Shown one piece after another: positions 12,695 to 19,778 of a stretch of 64,000 bases of DNA; the stretch's first letter is position 1; every line of letters begins with the position of its first letter. This DNA comes from Ignavibacteriota bacterium (GTDB taxonomy: Bacteria > Bacteroidota > Ignavibacteria > SZUA-365), in the NCBI GenBank assembly GCA_016218045.1, contig JACRFB010000001.1, forward strand, positions 62,001 to 126,000, written 5' to 3'. Both the position numbers and the translations under genes were made by a program. A model generated the notes under the pieces. The model did no database searches. It had not been told where the DNA came from and saw only the letters and a program-made list of their open reading frames with translations.

Positions 12695-13354
12695 TCAGGC
12701 GTGGGAGAGGTTCTGAAGTATCGTGATACTGAAGTACACACCAAAGCCGATAATGACAAGCGCGGTGATGGCTCCTGCGCGCCGCACGAAGGCGGGGGAA
12801 ATCTGGTGCCGGTTCCTGCGAACAAAGAGGGCCAGGCCGAGAAACCACGCAAAACTTCCGAGCCCGGTGGCGAACGAGAAAATCACCTTGTCCCAGAAGG
12901 TATTCGGAAGCAGGCCGTTGGCCGAGAGAAAACTGAGCACGGCCGTCCACGACACGAACAATGTCGGATTCGACAATGCCATGGCCGTGCCGAGCAACAC
13001 GCCCCAGGTGCGGCGGCCGTTGCGTGGCGATCCGTTTTCGACGGGCTTCGCCGCCTCTTCTCCGGCTTTACCGTCGAAGATGAGCATTTTTATGCCATAC
13101 AGAATCAGGAAGATCGACAGCCCGAACTGCACCCACTGGTTCTGGAGAAAAGGCGCCACCAGTGAAATGAGGCCGAGGGAGATTACCAGACAGTACAGGA
13201 TATCGATGATGACGGAGCCGATCGCAACATGTATGCCTCGGCGCGTCTGACCGCCCATCGTGCGCTGCGCGACGAAAATGGAAGTCGGACCGAGAGGGAT
13301 GGTCATCAGAATTCCGACGACTGTCCCGACCAAGAGGCTGATAAGAAGTTGCAT
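12695..13354 (-). CDS. LysE/RhtB-family amino-acid exporter
   Basis: A 219-residue inner-membrane protein with about six hydrophobic segments. The N-terminal IPLGPTSIFVAQRTM region corresponds to the conserved PGP block of LysE/RhtB transporters, and SNPTLFVSW is the second family landmark. A charged loop near residues 95-115 separates the two halves. The family exports amino acids or their analogues using the proton gradient. The substrate cannot be assigned. It is followed closely by the BNR-type T9SS gene. Confidence 0.85.
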   Translation of the reverse strand: MQLLISLLVGTVVGILMTIPLGPTSIFVAQRTMGGQTRRGIHVAIGSVIIDILYCLVISLGLISLVAPFLQNQWVQFGLSIFLILYGIKMLIFDGKAGEEAAKPVENGSPRNGRRTWGVLLGTAMALSNPTLFVSWTAVLSFLSANGLLPNTFWDKVIFSFATGLGSFAWFLGLALFVRRNRHQISPAFVRRAGAITALVIIGFGVYFSITILQNLSHA

Positions 13355-13418
13355 GGGTTGGCAGTGTGAGGGGTTGTGACCCGCAAGAAATCAATGTACA
13401 GAAAACACCAAAACGCGT

Positions 13419-13466
13419 CAACGCGAGGGCGGACCATCCTGCCGTCGATGGTCCGCCCCCGCGTTG
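13419..13466 (-). terminator. Strong hairpin terminator after the glutathione peroxidase gene
   Basis: Two 20-base arms (13419-13438 and 13447-13466) pair with a single mismatch around an 8-base loop. On the minus strand the hairpin is followed by a T-rich stretch (GCGTTTTGGTGTTTTC). It lies about 30 bases after the stop of the peroxidase gene and before the LysE gene, so it separates the two units. Confidence 0.8.
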
Positions 13467-13493
13467 TCCGTTTTTGCAGGATCTGTGTCCCGT

Positions 13494-14072
13494 CTATTTT
13501 GCCGTGAGGGTCTCCACCAAGCCCTTTAATTCTGCCGACATGGGGTCCACCTTCTGGCCATAGCGCGCAAGCACCTTCCCGTCGCGGTCGACAAGGAATT
13601 TGTTGAAATTCCACGTGATGTCACCGTTATGCCCCGCCTCACGCGTCAGATATGCGTAGAGGGGATGAATGTCGTCGCCCTTGACGCTGATCTTTGAAAA
13701 CATGTCGAAGCTGAGGTCGTACTTCGTGGAGCAAAACGTCTTGATCTCTTCATCGGTCCCTGGTTCCTGCTCACCGAAATTGTTCGCGGGAAAACCGAGT
13801 ATCTCGAAGCCGCGATCCTTGTATGCGCGGTAGAGCGACTCCAGTGTGGCATACTGTTTCGTATACCCGCAGAATGAAGCGGTATTGACGATGAGAAGCA
13901 CCTTGCCTTTGTAGGCGGCGAGTGGTGTCATGGTCCCGTCGATTTTTTTCATGGTAAACGAATACACGCCTTTCATGCCCTTGTCCTGTGTCTGAGCGGA
14001 ACCGTCCGGCGAAACCGCACACAGCAGAACCAGTGTCGTGGCAAGCAGGAATCGGGAAAATGGGGTCTGCAT
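13494..14072 (-). CDS. Exported glutathione peroxidase-family thiol peroxidase
   Basis: A 192-residue protein with an N-terminal signal peptide (about 1-27). It has NTASFCGYT with the peroxidatic cysteine at residue 68, GFPANNFGEQEPG with the conserved Gln, and WNFNKFL with the conserved Trp and Asn of the catalytic tetrad. A second cysteine in FCSTKY near residue 112 suggests a two-cysteine, thioredoxin-linked mechanism, as in most bacterial members. Expected role: reduction of peroxides in the periplasm. A strong terminator follows. Confidence 0.92.
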   Translation of the reverse strand: MQTPFSRFLLATTLVLLCAVSPDGSAQTQDKGMKGVYSFTMKKIDGTMTPLAAYKGKVLLIVNTASFCGYTKQYATLESLYRAYKDRGFEILGFPANNFGEQEPGTDEEIKTFCSTKYDLSFDMFSKISVKGDDIHPLYAYLTREAGHNGDITWNFNKFLVDRDGKVLARYGQKVDPMSAELKGLVETLTAK

Positions 14073-14193
14073 CGGAGCCTGTCCTTGGTTGAGTACTATG
14101 GAATCACCATCCCGAACACGGACGTCGGCTGTCTTGGTTCCGTGAAAACCCGCCTGCAGGGGAAAGCACTCGTGTGCATCGGGTGCGGCTGTC

Positions 14194-15573
<1,380 letters not shown>

Positions 15574-15643
15574 TGATCCTCCTGCTTGCAGACGTGTATC
15601 CGGCTCCGGCGCTAGCAGCCGTTGAAATTGAATCCCGGGCCAC

Positions 15644-16786
15644 TCATTCCGGGATCCCGACACCACCGAGCATCAATCGCCCCAGCCGGTCGATGAGAAT
15701 CGAGGGTGTCAGGCCGCCCTCTTCGGGAATCCCCTTCAGGTCGTCGGGAAATTCCTTTCCCCATACCGGGATGAAGCTTCGAGTACCGCGCTGCTGCGCA
15801 TCACGAAGAATCTCCTTGACCTGCGATTCGACGAAGCCGCGCTTTTCTTCGATGACAATGATGCGGCCCGCGGATGCGGCGAATTCTTCCACAATGAGAG
15901 GATCGAGAGGCCAGGTGCACCCGAGTTTCAGGACCGGGTGTACATCGACACAGTCGAGTTCGTACAGCGCATGCTGCAAGTAGTTGTAGGTGTTGCCGCT
16001 TGTGATGAATCCCGTAGCCGCGTCCCGACCCTGTTCGATGCGGTTGAGTCCGGACGCGCGGAGCGCATCCATAAACCGGGGCATGCGGCGTTCAATGATA
16101 TCCTTTTCGAGCCAGGCCGAATTGGGCGGAACGGATACGCGTTCGCGGAGCGCGATGCTGCGCGTGTCGATGCGCACCTTTTCATGCATGTTCACGGCAG
16201 GATAGCTGTTGGGCCGCAGTTGTACCGTGCCACCCCCATCCGCCTGATTCGTGGTGATGATGAGGCCGACGAGAAGCTGCGATTCGCGCGCGAGTGTGCA
16301 GGCCTCGCCGATCCAATCCTTGATTTCCTGATTCGATGCAGGTTCAAGAACCGGGATCTTGGCGGAGAAGAAGGTGTAGCGCGAATCGGCTCCCACTTGT
16401 GTGCTCGACAGCGCGGGGTCGTCGCCCGCTACGCAGATCGCGCCGGATCCGCTCTCAGGGATCGTGTAATTTGTGATCGCGAGTCCGTCGAGCGCCACAT
16501 ACGCGCCGACGCTCTTGAACACAGTCATCCCGATCACACCCGGTACGCCCATGGCTCCATGCAGGATGGCGGCCGATTGGTTCTCGTTGTTCGCGATCAC
16601 ACCCTTGATCCCCTTTTCCCGGAACAGCTCCTGATTCGTCTCGATCACATCGAAGACGTTCGCAACCGGTGAGCCGGGGTAGCCGGTGATAAGCGCCACA
16701 CCTGCCTCGAGTGCGCCCTTCACGAGCAGTTCATTCCCGTCGAAAACGGCAATGCCGTCTGATTGTACCAAGCGTGGATCGATCAT
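15644..16786 (-). CDS. Orphan N-terminal half of indolepyruvate:ferredoxin oxidoreductase alpha-like protein
   Basis: A 380-residue protein that matches the first half of IorA-type subunits. It has a TPP pyrimidine-binding-like domain (about 1-200, with GALEAGVALITGYPGSP and NNENQSAAI) followed by the transketolase-C-like domain (about 240-360, IIVIEEKRGFVESQV). IorA normally continues with a TPP pyrophosphate-binding domain and two 4Fe-4S ferredoxin motifs, to about 600 residues. Here the frame ends after GGVGIPE and no CPGCPHRG-like block lies downstream. Either the other half is encoded elsewhere, or this half has another role. It is next to an amino-acid decarboxylase, but no partner beta subunit is in view. 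Confidence 0.7.
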   Translation of the reverse strand: MIDPRLVQSDGIAVFDGNELLVKGALEAGVALITGYPGSPVANVFDVIETNQELFREKGIKGVIANNENQSAAILHGAMGVPGVIGMTVFKSVGAYVALDGLAITNYTIPESGSGAICVAGDDPALSSTQVGADSRYTFFSAKIPVLEPASNQEIKDWIGEACTLARESQLLVGLIITTNQADGGGTVQLRPNSYPAVNMHEKVRIDTRSIALRERVSVPPNSAWLEKDIIERRMPRFMDALRASGLNRIEQGRDAATGFITSGNTYNYLQHALYELDCVDVHPVLKLGCTWPLDPLIVEEFAASAGRIIVIEEKRGFVESQVKEILRDAQQRGTRSFIPVWGKEFPDDLKGIPEEGGLTPSILIDRLGRLMLGGVGIPE

Positions 16787-16897
16787 TTGGTGAAAATACG
16801 AAGATCCGGAGAGATACGTTTATCCATCTTTCGTCTTACACCTCCCGTGAGTAACTTCCCGCGATTCGAACCTTTCACTTTCCAAACAGGACACACG

Positions 16898-18085
16898 ATG
16901 GATCTTTCCGCCATTCAGCAGGCACTCAAAGCCGCCGGACTCGACGGCTGGCTTTTCTACGACTTTCACAACCGCGACGCCATCGCCGCCCGTATCCTGA
17001 AAATGGATACCAATCGTTTCGCATCGCGGCGCTGGTACTATTTCATTCCCGCCGAAGGCGAGCCGCAGAAACTGGTGCATCGCATTGAACCGTGGCGCTG
17101 CGACCATCTCCCGGGCGCAAAACACGTGTATCTGCCGTGGCAGCAGCAGCAGGCGCTGTTGCGCGATATTCTCGGCGGAGCGTCGCGCGTGGCGATGCAG
17201 TACTCGCCCAACAATTCCATTCCGTACGTGTCGATCGTTGACGCGGGCACCGTCGAACTGATTCGCTCCTTCGGCGTCGAAGTTGTGTCGAGCGGCGACC
17301 TCGTCGGCCTCTTCGAGGCGCATCTGTCGATGGAAGACTTCGCAAGCCACGAGAAGGCCGGCGAAATCATGCACATGGTGAAGGACGAGACGTTCCGCGA
17401 AATCGGCCGCCGCATCAAGGCAGGCGAGAATCCGCGCGAAGTGGACATTCAGCACTTCATGCACGGCTTGATGCGGGCCAATGGCATGCATTGGGACGAC
17501 GGTCCCATCGTCGCGGTGAATGAACATGCTGCCGATCCGCACTTCGAACCCACTGAGGCCAACAGCCACGCGATGAAAGAAGGCGACCTCGTGCTGCTCG
17601 ACCTCTGGGCCAAGCTCGACGTTCCCGGAAGCATCTACTACGACATCACGTGGATGGGCTACATCGGCACCGAGGTGCCCGCCCGCATCACGGAGGTGTT
17701 TAATGTGGCGCGTGACGCGCGCGATACGGCGCTTGATCTGGTGCGCGAACGCTTCGCGGCGAATGAGCCCCTGCACGGGTGGGAAGTGGACGATGCCTGC
17801 CGCAAGGTGATCGTTGACGCCGGTTATGGCGACTGGTTCACCCACCGCACCGGACACAACATCGGCGAGGAAGTGCACGGCAACGGCGTCCATATCGACA
17901 ATCTCGAGACCAAGGACGAGCGCAGCATCATCAAGGGCACGTGCTTCTCGGTGGAACCGGGCATATACATGGAACACGAGAAAATCGGGTTCCGGACCGA
18001 GATCGATGTTTTTGTCACCGACGAAGGCAACGTTGAAGTGACCGGCCCCATCCAGGCCGAGGTGATTCCGATACTCGCCCTGTAA
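16898..18085 (+). CDS. M24-family metallopeptidase (Xaa-Pro aminopeptidase-like)
   Basis: A 395-residue cytoplasmic pita-bread-fold protein. The expected five metal ligands are visible: Asp in LDLWAK (about 236), Asp in YYDITW (about 249), His in HRTGHNIG (about 321), Glu in SVEPGIY (about 352) and Glu in RTEIDV (about 368). An N-terminal creatinase-like domain precedes them. The family removes N-terminal residues next to proline or acts as a dipeptidase. I chose the ATG at 16898; frame upstream of it is open but overlaps the divergent neighbour's promoter region. The codons are unusually G+C rich, as in highly expressed genes. Confidence 0.88.
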   Translation: MDLSAIQQALKAAGLDGWLFYDFHNRDAIAARILKMDTNRFASRRWYYFIPAEGEPQKLVHRIEPWRCDHLPGAKHVYLPWQQQQALLRDILGGASRVAMQYSPNNSIPYVSIVDAGTVELIRSFGVEVVSSGDLVGLFEAHLSMEDFASHEKAGEIMHMVKDETFREIGRRIKAGENPREVDIQHFMHGLMRANGMHWDDGPIVAVNEHAADPHFEPTEANSHAMKEGDLVLLDLWAKLDVPGSIYYDITWMGYIGTEVPARITEVFNVARDARDTALDLVRERFAANEPLHGWEVDDACRKVIVDAGYGDWFTHRTGHNIGEEVHGNGVHIDNLETKDERSIIKGTCFSVEPGIYMEHEKIGFRTEIDVFVTDEGNVEVTGPIQAEVIPILAL

Positions 18086-18266
18086 CATCGATCCGGGCGC
18101 GGCGTCGCGGCCGTACGCCGCACCGTTGATGCCCGCTGGCAGGTACCGGAGTGTTCGCGCTTCACATGCCGCCTCGCGTCCCCTGCCCGTATAACATCCA
18201 TTTCCCGGCTCGCGCTGTGCGACACACCTTCCCTGTTCACTGTTCCATCCGACCCCCGGAGCCCCG

Positions 18267-19778
18267 ATGAACATCTACATCATTTTTCTCCTCGCGTATC
18301 TGCTGATTCTCACTGCCTACAATTTCTGGCACTCTCGCAAAACGATGTCGCGCGACGAGTACATGGTGGCGGGACGCAACCTCTCCCTGACGCAGATGGT
18401 GTTTACGCTCATCTGCACATGGATCGGATCGGGGACGTTTATTGCCGGTGCGGAGTATGCCTCGTATGCGGGATGGAGCGCAATGTGGCAGCCCGCGGGC
18501 GCGTTTGTGGGAATTGCGATCATCTACTTTGTTGCCGGCCGCATCCGCACTTTCGGGCAATACACCATCGGCGACATTCTCGAGGTGCGCTATGGGAAAT
18601 GGGCGCGGCTCTTCGGAGCGATCGCGCTCATCATCGCGTTTACTACCATTGTCGCGTATCAATTCCGCGCGGGCGGATACATCCTGAACGTCCTCACGGA
18701 CGGTGGTGTGAGTCTGGCGATGGGCCAGACGATCACCGCGCTGTTTGTGATCACCTTCGTGGCAATCGGCGGAATGATCGCCATTGCACACACGGATCTA
18801 CCAAACGGTATAATCATCGTCCTCGCCTGCCTCATCGCAGTGCCCTTTGTGATCGCGGCCGCTGGCGGATGGGGACACATACAGGAAGTACTGCCTCCCG
18901 GAAATTTTGAAGTGTTTTCGCCGGACTTCGGAAAGTATCCCGCACTGAAGGGATTCGCCTATTTCCTCTCGACGCTGCTGCTGTTGATGGGCATTCAGTC
19001 GATGTACCAGAAATTTTACGCGGCCAAATCCCCGCGCGAGGCGACGCGTGCCGTCGCCATCTGGATCGTCGGTACCATCGTGGTCGAGACCGTGGTTATC
19101 TGCATCGCTGTCTACGCCTCCTCGTACAATGTGGAACACGGGATGCAGTGGGACGGACGGTCGCTGGTTCTGAACGCCGCCCGCCACATGGTGCCTGTCT
19201 GGGCGGGTATTCTGCTTCTCGGCGCCGCCTGTGCCGTGGTGCTGTCGACCGGCATGAACTACCTTCTCTCGTCCAGTTCCAACGTGATGCGCGACATTTA
19301 CCAGCGCTTTATCAGCCCGAATGCCGACGAGTCGAAGATGGTCGCACTGCAAAAGGTATTCGTGGTGCTGATGGGCATCGTGGCGTTCCTCATGATCTTC
19401 ATTCCGACGGCTCTCGAACTGCCTATTTCGATCCTGCAGTACAGCTACTTTGCATACACGATTTATGGTGTCGCCATCACGCCGGCGCTGTTTGCGGCGT
19501 TGACATGGAAGCGCGCGACGAAACAGGGCGGCCTCGCCTCGATCGTCGGCGGCACGCTGGCGGTGGTGCTTTTCGAGATCGTGCTCCCGCGCATCGCGCC
19601 GGGAATCATGCTTGCCGCATCCACCGCAAAGGGTGGCGAAATTTTTGGCAGCGATCCGTGGGGCATACCCAGCATTTACCCGGCCCTCTTCATTTCCATC
19701 GCAGCTCTTGTGATTGTGAGTCTCATGACCCCGAAACCCAGGAAAGAGGATCTGGAGAAGTTGTTCCCCGGCTCCTAA
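18267..19778 (+). CDS. Sodium:solute symporter family (SSS) transporter
   Basis: A 503-residue membrane protein with about 13 hydrophobic segments. YMVAGRNLS near residue 36 and WIGSGTFI in the second segment are SSS-family landmarks, and residues such as SSSNVMRDIYQRF in the middle match the conserved block after helix 8. The family takes up small solutes such as amino acids, sugars, pantothenate or acetate with Na+. No substrate can be assigned. It lies about 180 bases after the M24 peptidase gene and may import or work on related peptide-derived substrates, though this is only proximity. Confidence 0.88.
   Translation: MNIYIIFLLAYLLILTAYNFWHSRKTMSRDEYMVAGRNLSLTQMVFTLICTWIGSGTFIAGAEYASYAGWSAMWQPAGAFVGIAIIYFVAGRIRTFGQYTIGDILEVRYGKWARLFGAIALIIAFTTIVAYQFRAGGYILNVLTDGGVSLAMGQTITALFVITFVAIGGMIAIAHTDLPNGIIIVLACLIAVPFVIAAAGGWGHIQEVLPPGNFEVFSPDFGKYPALKGFAYFLSTLLLLMGIQSMYQKFYAAKSPREATRAVAIWIVGTIVVETVVICIAVYASSYNVEHGMQWDGRSLVLNAARHMVPVWAGILLLGAACAVVLSTGMNYLLSSSSNVMRDIYQRFISPNADESKMVALQKVFVVLMGIVAFLMIFIPTALELPISILQYSYFAYTIYGVAITPALFAALTWKRATKQGGLASIVGGTLAVVLFEIVLPRIAPGIMLAASTAKGGEIFGSDPWGIPSIYPALFISIAALVIVSLMTPKPRKEDLEKLFPGS

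Follow-up and report, generated by a model that had tools for sequence, protein, structure and literature searches.

A stand-alone alpha-type half and a candidate distant partner suggest the fission of an indolepyruvate:ferredoxin oxidoreductase-type enzyme in an Ignavibacteriota bacterium

A gene for half of an oxidoreductase

Why would a genome keep a gene for what looks like only the first half of an oxidoreductase, with no partner gene beside it? The question is raised by an open reading frame of 380 aa with an ATG start, located at 15644..16786 on the reverse strand of the 64,000-nt stretch of Ignavibacteriota DNA analysed here (the window). The original prediction saw in its product the pyrimidine-binding (PYR) and transketolase-C-like (TK-C) regions of indolepyruvate:ferredoxin oxidoreductase (IOR) and left three options: a split enzyme, a regulatory homologue or a new function. 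Based on the reading frame, NCBIfam matches, order-mates and a distant partner gene, we propose that it very probably encodes the alpha-type subunit (PYR plus TK-C) of a two-gene IOR-type 2-oxoacid:ferredoxin oxidoreductase (OFOR) that would have originated by fission of a fused enzyme.

The predicted regions were confirmed by NCBIfam, sub-threshold Pfam and structure matches. The protein aligns to positions 7-331 of 595 in IOR_alpha (E 4e-46) and 57-403 of 1170 in the fused IOR family PRK13030 (E 2.4e-45), both far under the curated cut-offs; against the TIGR03336 IOR_alpha equivalog it scores 157.5 vs 650.9 bits, and the part of the profile covered does not amount to the one-chain PYR, TK-C, TPP and ferredoxin arrangement of IorA. 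No Pfam family is matched at E <= 0.001, and at a loose threshold POR_N (E 0.011), TPP_enzyme_N and Transketolase_C appear, all under cut-offs. The PYR domain (residues ~13-180; 16247..16750, reverse strand) is placed by the sub-threshold POR_N match (24-177), alignment with the 1yd7 alpha subunit and the structure match, and the TK-C-like domain, OFOR domain II (residues ~255-376; 15659..16024, reverse strand), by the sub-threshold Transketolase_C match (260-329) and pLDDT. A phmmer search of the PDB with the single protein returned no match and a nine-sequence profile found two alpha subunits. The AlphaFold model has a mean pLDDT of 62.5, with poor regions at residues 1-44 and 180-226 and a block pLDDT of 84-94 at residues 231-350. 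Its top structural match by Z is 9bt4_A, the 402-residue alpha subunit of Methanosarcina pyruvate:ferredoxin oxidoreductase (302 residues aligned, Z 23.3, rmsd 4.5), and rows 2-11 also belong to the 2-oxoacid (or oxalate) oxidoreductase superfamily.

A PYR plus TK-C protein of such size has the usual layout of an OFOR alpha subunit, and the oddity of the window gene is its missing adjacent beta-type gene. Neither a TPP pyrophosphate (PP) domain nor ferredoxin motifs occur in the protein or next to the gene, just as originally noted, and the neighbours are a pyridoxal phosphate (PLP)-dependent decarboxylase, a glutathione peroxidase and a divergent M24 peptidase, with no gamma gene. An assembly-edge artefact was considered for this gene and rejected: it lies 77 kb inside a 336-kb contig and stands alone in four other genomes of the order.

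A complementary half on another contig

A six-frame search of the same genome (G000) with the window protein returned the gene itself, IorA-like frames on contigs C43 and C1 (C1:274562) and a KorA-like frame on C18. A second query, the C-terminal 811 residues of a Poribacterial fused protein, had a single strong hit here, C45:124727-127078 (46% identical along residues 16-808), and likewise one in each of the order-mates G013, G014 and G015 (44-45% identity); G012, a genome 74% complete, gave weak matches only. The C-terminal half that the original prediction proposed to look for elsewhere in the genome was thus found at C45:124709-127084 (forward strand, outside the window), with TPP, iron-sulphur, gamma and DUF6537 regions. 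This partner gene encodes 792 aa (814-815 aa in G013-G015) and starts just ahead of an 'RTPSYCAGCPH' stretch. The own-genome copy, the one scanned for Pfam domains, contains TPP_enzyme_C (E 1.5e-14), POR gamma (PF01558, E 6.1e-19) and, after gamma, DUF6537 (residues 598-784, E 4.2e-16), all above Pfam cut-offs, and the protein carries iron-sulphur (cysteine) motifs.

On PRK13030 (NF009589) the partner covers positions 427-1138, downstream of the segment matched by the window protein, so that the single chain of ~1170 aa that characterizes this family is here divided between two genes. Scores are 154.7 bits for the window protein and 290.0 for the partner, with a curated cut-off of 816 that the intact Poribacterial fusion itself (484.1 bits) also falls below. 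Scored per chain, both genes are under the curated cut-offs and the enzyme would consequently be missed in the order.

Together the two halves span the fused relatives, leaving a gap of some five residues between them. In a multiple alignment that included 27 fused proteins, the last residues of the G012-G015 short proteins correspond to positions 376-377 of L042, a fused relative of 1184 aa, and the first residues of the four partners to positions 382-383; the window protein ends at residue 376 by BLAST on L042 (the multiple alignment gives 419, taken as a stray residue). The halves sum to one fused enzyme with nothing over, leaving no room for split-intein parts. In a model of the fused protein that is too weak for interface mapping (mean pLDDT 49.4, pTM 0.34), the cut (376/382) lies between two helices, in a coil region with pLDDT below 50.

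Bookkeeping of domains in the genome agrees with a single unpaired couple. POR_N, which missed the window gene, detects five other PYR domains (C59, C16, C18, C43 and C1:274595), and TPP_enzyme_C assigns every one of them a PP domain, either within the same chain or next to it. The partner, matched at C45:124925, is the sole other PP match of the IOR-type family by homology; five further TPP_enzyme_C matches (C40, C26, C52, C45:20311 and C4) have no POR_N nearby and were assumed to be other TPP enzymes.

In all four genomes that have both halves these are on different contigs, and no operon backs the pairing. The own-genome partner sits on a 193-kb contig, 65 kb from its nearer end, so the halves are at least ~140 kb apart and neither is at an assembly edge; in G013-G015 they occupy different short contigs (5.8-23.7 kb) and are therefore not neighbours. 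Multihaem cytochrome genes are found near the own-genome partner (L063 810-2981; Cytochrome_C7 with cytochrome b561, Pfam) and, by eye, near that of G014 (L065 3857-5284).

Predicted catalytic residues and selection

Residue Glu68 of the window protein (codon at 16583..16585, reverse strand) is invariant in 32/32 short and fused sequences, as are many positions around it, and in the alignment with 1yd7 alpha it falls on the conserved Glu of 'EDEIAS'. By analogy with StOFOR, in which Glu294a is bonded to the N1' atom of TPP (PMC5020499), it is predicted to be the TPP-activating glutamate. The same study gives a Gly-Asp-Gly motif and Asn118b as the metal ligands and a CXGC motif as ligand of the proximal cluster (PMC5020499). 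In the partner, G117, D118 and N146 are each present in 31/31 sequences, along with the cysteines C32-x2-C35, C76 and C222 and seven more (257, 260, 263, 269, 290, 296 and 302), a total of 11 invariant cysteines. The sequence features of the OFOR superfamily that were tested are found, namely PYR with Glu, PP with GD...N and CXGC, and POR gamma, the latter two on the partner.

The second ferredoxin-like motif of the partner (L063:7710-10085, residues 290-302) has three invariant Cys (C290, C296 and C302) across the 31 sequences. At the place where partner and fused sequences have three, the IorA of L123 has a four-cysteine motif.

Among G013-G015, whose three pairs have unsaturated dS, dN/dS ranges from 0.104 to 0.150 in the short gene and from 0.090 to 0.120 in the partner, and by these ratios both genes are under purifying selection. 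In comparisons with the own genome and G012, dS is saturated.

Distribution of the two halves

Considering the own genome and 99 relatives, a strong match to the short form was found in five (G000 and G012-G015) and to the partner in four (G000 and G013-G015), which gives four genomes with both, one with the short form only (G012), none with the partner only and 95 with neither. All five are among the 16 genomes of the order, where the partner accompanies four of the five short forms and never occurs alone. Fisher tests return p 1.3e-6 for the 100 genomes and 0.0027 for the 16 of the order, values uncorrected for relatedness. Weaker matches were counted as paralogues (43/48 matched genomes in the short-form search, 19/23 in the partner search), strong and weak being separated by E <=1e-164 vs >=1e-31 for the short form and 0 vs >=3e-19 for the partner. 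None of the 11 family-mates of the own genome has either half at a strong match.

The clean frame end reported for the window gene recurs in its relatives: the short form has 376-380 aa in five genomes of three families, and the G012-G015 proteins are stand-alone and 66-72% identical to the window protein over nearly full length. Conservation as a stand-alone gene, proposed earlier as a check, therefore extends to 4/4 order-mates that have the gene, and the full-length gene at this locus that would indicate a recent deletion is seen in none of the four. Other groups do have full-length fused relatives, of ~1190 aa, the records being titled Verrucomicrobia and Poribacteria.

Wider samples return the same picture. 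At E <= 1e-40 each half occurs only in the own genome among 395 genomes of the phylum sample, and in the overlapping class sample (391 genomes) the short form is restricted to the same five. In the phylum sample of L042 the short protein has matches in 70/84 genomes, and in 69 of these the match falls in an open frame of 1086-1300 aa; in that of L038 the matches (8/288 genomes) are all in frames of 1209-1360 aa. The stand-alone form is thus seen only in one order, save for the Poribacterial genome G474, where the gene is in pieces. There (L100, G474:C60), by eye, a portion of the N half directly adjoins a portion of DUF6537 and the intervening middle is absent. In three Poribacterial genomes (L042 2512-8666, L100 and L101), also by eye, the fused gene, in pieces in one of them, is located between recN-like and shikimate dehydrogenase-like genes.

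History of the split

Trees were built for the N half (32 rows) and the C half (31 rows) with the 24 fused relatives on which the identity comparison also rests, i.e. L038-L043 plus 18 fetched from the 70 + 8 matched genomes, and three plasmid-borne outgroups; the IorA-like proteins of L067, L123 and L068 were left out. Split forms make up one clade per half with 100% bootstrap, beside fused relatives. The outgroup proteins, from Rhodococcus, Cupriavidus and Pseudosulfitobacter plasmids, are fused and align to both halves in the same domain order. The position of the split clade differs between trees, for which a long-branch warning applies: for the N half it falls beside 11 Verrucomicrobial fused proteins (support 88/77) and for the C half it is sister to all 24 non-outgroup fused forms (94/90).

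The C tree would fit a history in which the halves were separate from the start in this lineage and the fused forms arose by fusion, and OFOR alpha and beta subunits are indeed separate in many enzymes, an adjacent KorA/KorB-like pair being present in this very genome (C18). Against such a history, a fused outgroup with the same domain order means that two fusions would be needed, and the N tree places the split clade, weakly, within fused forms; we consider it unlikely. Since the outgroup is fused with the same order of halves, fission is the simpler history, and our best reading of the sequences is that a fused IOR-type enzyme was probably divided at the usual alpha/beta boundary, its halves now standing at separate loci.

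Gene neighbourhood

The decarboxylase beside the window gene, also part of the original prediction, proved to be a PLP-dependent group II decarboxylase-like gene downstream (14194..15573, reverse strand; Pyridoxal_deC, E 3.2e-25). It starts 70 nt past the window-gene stop, with AGGAGG just ahead of its ATG. Scanning 13300-17000 yielded a single promoter-like site, against a mean of 1.2 in shuffled sequence, and seven terminator-like sites, against 3.1; the stretch between the two genes, which judging by the sequence are probably co-transcribed, contains none of these sites. The decarboxylase is possibly substrate context, not part of the enzyme.

The order short IOR half, PLP decarboxylase and glutathione peroxidase is common to the window (13494-16786) and G012 (L034 8001-11179), with identities of 60% for the decarboxylase and 62% for the peroxidase. 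L034 (PABJ01000055.1), which appears to be contig C56 of G012, is a metagenome-assembled record titled Ectothiorhodospiraceae bacterium; it has the 72% identical short form and the gene order of the window, its genome is listed in the window's order and the title looks taxonomically wrong. In G013-G015 the short gene sits on contigs of 5.8-8.8 kb (L035-L037), where the decarboxylase had no match; there, an alpha/beta hydrolase gene is followed after a one-base gap by the short gene and then by an M24-like gene. A shared M24 peptidase neighbour was rejected, given that the M24-like proteins of the window and of these relatives are 26-28% identical over partial length. An alpha/beta hydrolase also lies upstream of the partner in G000 and G014 (36% mutual identity, opposite strands), and it is a different protein from the hydrolase next to the short gene (24% identity over partial length).

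Opposite the M24 peptidase of the window runs a long antisense ORF (16820-18274, reverse strand, 484 aa). Other such frames exist, and they are probably a side effect of G+C content.

Proposed mechanism

We propose that the window protein and the C45 protein would assemble as an alpha/(beta-delta-gamma) protomer without covalent joining, since each chain ends at the boundary and there is no room for split-intein parts. TPP would sit between the chains, bound by the GDS...N motif of the partner and activated by Glu68 of the window protein. A 2-oxoacid would be oxidatively decarboxylated, CoA taking the acyl group to yield an acyl-CoA, while electrons would leave TPP by way of the partner's clusters and reach an external carrier (ferredoxin).

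As for the substrate, our guess is an aryl or branched-chain 2-oxoacid derived from the degradation of amino acids; the 'indolepyruvate' of the enzyme name is inherited from the family models. For context, the IOR-family enzyme EdcC is required for in vivo growth on estradiol, its proposed role being the decarboxylation of a meta-cleavage product with addition of CoA (PMC7793797), and Aromatoleum IorAB reportedly turns phenylpyruvate into phenylacetyl-CoA (PMC9765128).

One may further speculate that the split is purposeful, the order tuning an iron-sulphur/TPP body through the supply of a small activating PYR/TK-C subunit, as in a two-key oxidoreductase. The context for this rather improbable idea is that the short half sits beside an amino-acid-decarboxylase-like gene in two genomes, G000 and G012.

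Alternative explanations

The short protein might be a homologue with a regulatory or moonlighting role and no catalytic one, in which case the distant partner would work with something else. Location on different contigs and the occurrence of the short form alone in G012 (74% complete) would fit, but Glu68 and its surroundings are invariant between short and fused proteins, constraint is similar on both genes and the searches of the genome left the partner no other unpaired OFOR-type PYR domain, which makes such a role very unlikely. Of the three options originally listed, the split enzyme is strongly supported by the complementary half on another contig, and a regulatory homologue or a new function is not needed because the catalytic Glu is kept and the partner co-occurs.

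Pairing with the TPP-domain subunit of another oxidoreductase of this genome, such as KorB, is highly improbable: separate KorB-type frames are present (C16 and C18) but have their own adjacent PYR genes, and the window protein resembles the fusions more closely (41-48% identity with the 24 N halves, the corresponding C halves being 36-47% identical to the C45 partner) than it does the other family members in the genome (29-31%). Finally, recent truncation or a pseudogene remnant of a full-length IorA, suggested by 380 aa vs 595 for the IOR_alpha profile, is scarcely credible and largely refuted by the conserved ends, the length being constant at 376-380 aa in five genomes of three families, with dN/dS of ~0.1 and an intact IorA-like gene elsewhere in the genome that is only 31% identical.

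Comparison with known systems

An apparent orphan gene thus becomes part of a testable two-gene enzyme, in which a fused IOR-type oxidoreductase would have come apart at the superfamily's usual alpha/beta boundary with its halves dispersed in the genome. Such a split pair would be a natural way to study PYR/TPP-domain recognition in OFOR enzymes. A description of an IOR split of this kind was not found in the literature searched, i.e. titles and the beginnings of abstracts, most subscription papers being outside it.

The closest system is the fused IOR family (NF009589/PRK13030; L038-L043), which has the same domains in the same order as the two halves combined and whose 24 Verrucomicrobial and Poribacterial members are those to which the own-genome halves show the N- and C-half identities given above. 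The difference is that here two genes on different contigs are cut at the TK-C/TPP-domain boundary. Two-gene IorA/IorB enzymes (TIGR03336, TIGR03334) have homologous domains, and a one-chain PYR, TK-C and TPP IorA-like gene also exists in this genome (C43). However, IorA joins PYR, TK-C, TPP and ferredoxin on one chain and only gamma is separate, whereas in the split pair PYR plus TK-C is separate and gamma is joined to the TPP domain.

KorA/KorB and PorA/PorB resemble the window gene in an alpha subunit of ~375-400 aa with PYR and TK-C, in the cut point and in providing the best structure match, 9bt4_A. Unlike the split pair, Kor-type PYR and PP genes are adjacent in the own genome, and to our knowledge the beta subunits of the KorA/KorB and PorA/PorB type have no gamma or DUF6537. 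Transketolase is a different enzyme, without iron-sulphur clusters. Archaeal PorA-PorB, KorA-KorC and KorB-KorC fusions are reported in one study (PMC11237513). A TPP enzyme in two chains, and with it a precedent for reconstitution, is offered by the 'split-gene' transketolase of Carboxydothermus hydrogenoformans, whose two chains are reported to reconstitute an active alpha2beta2 enzyme (PMC7661550).
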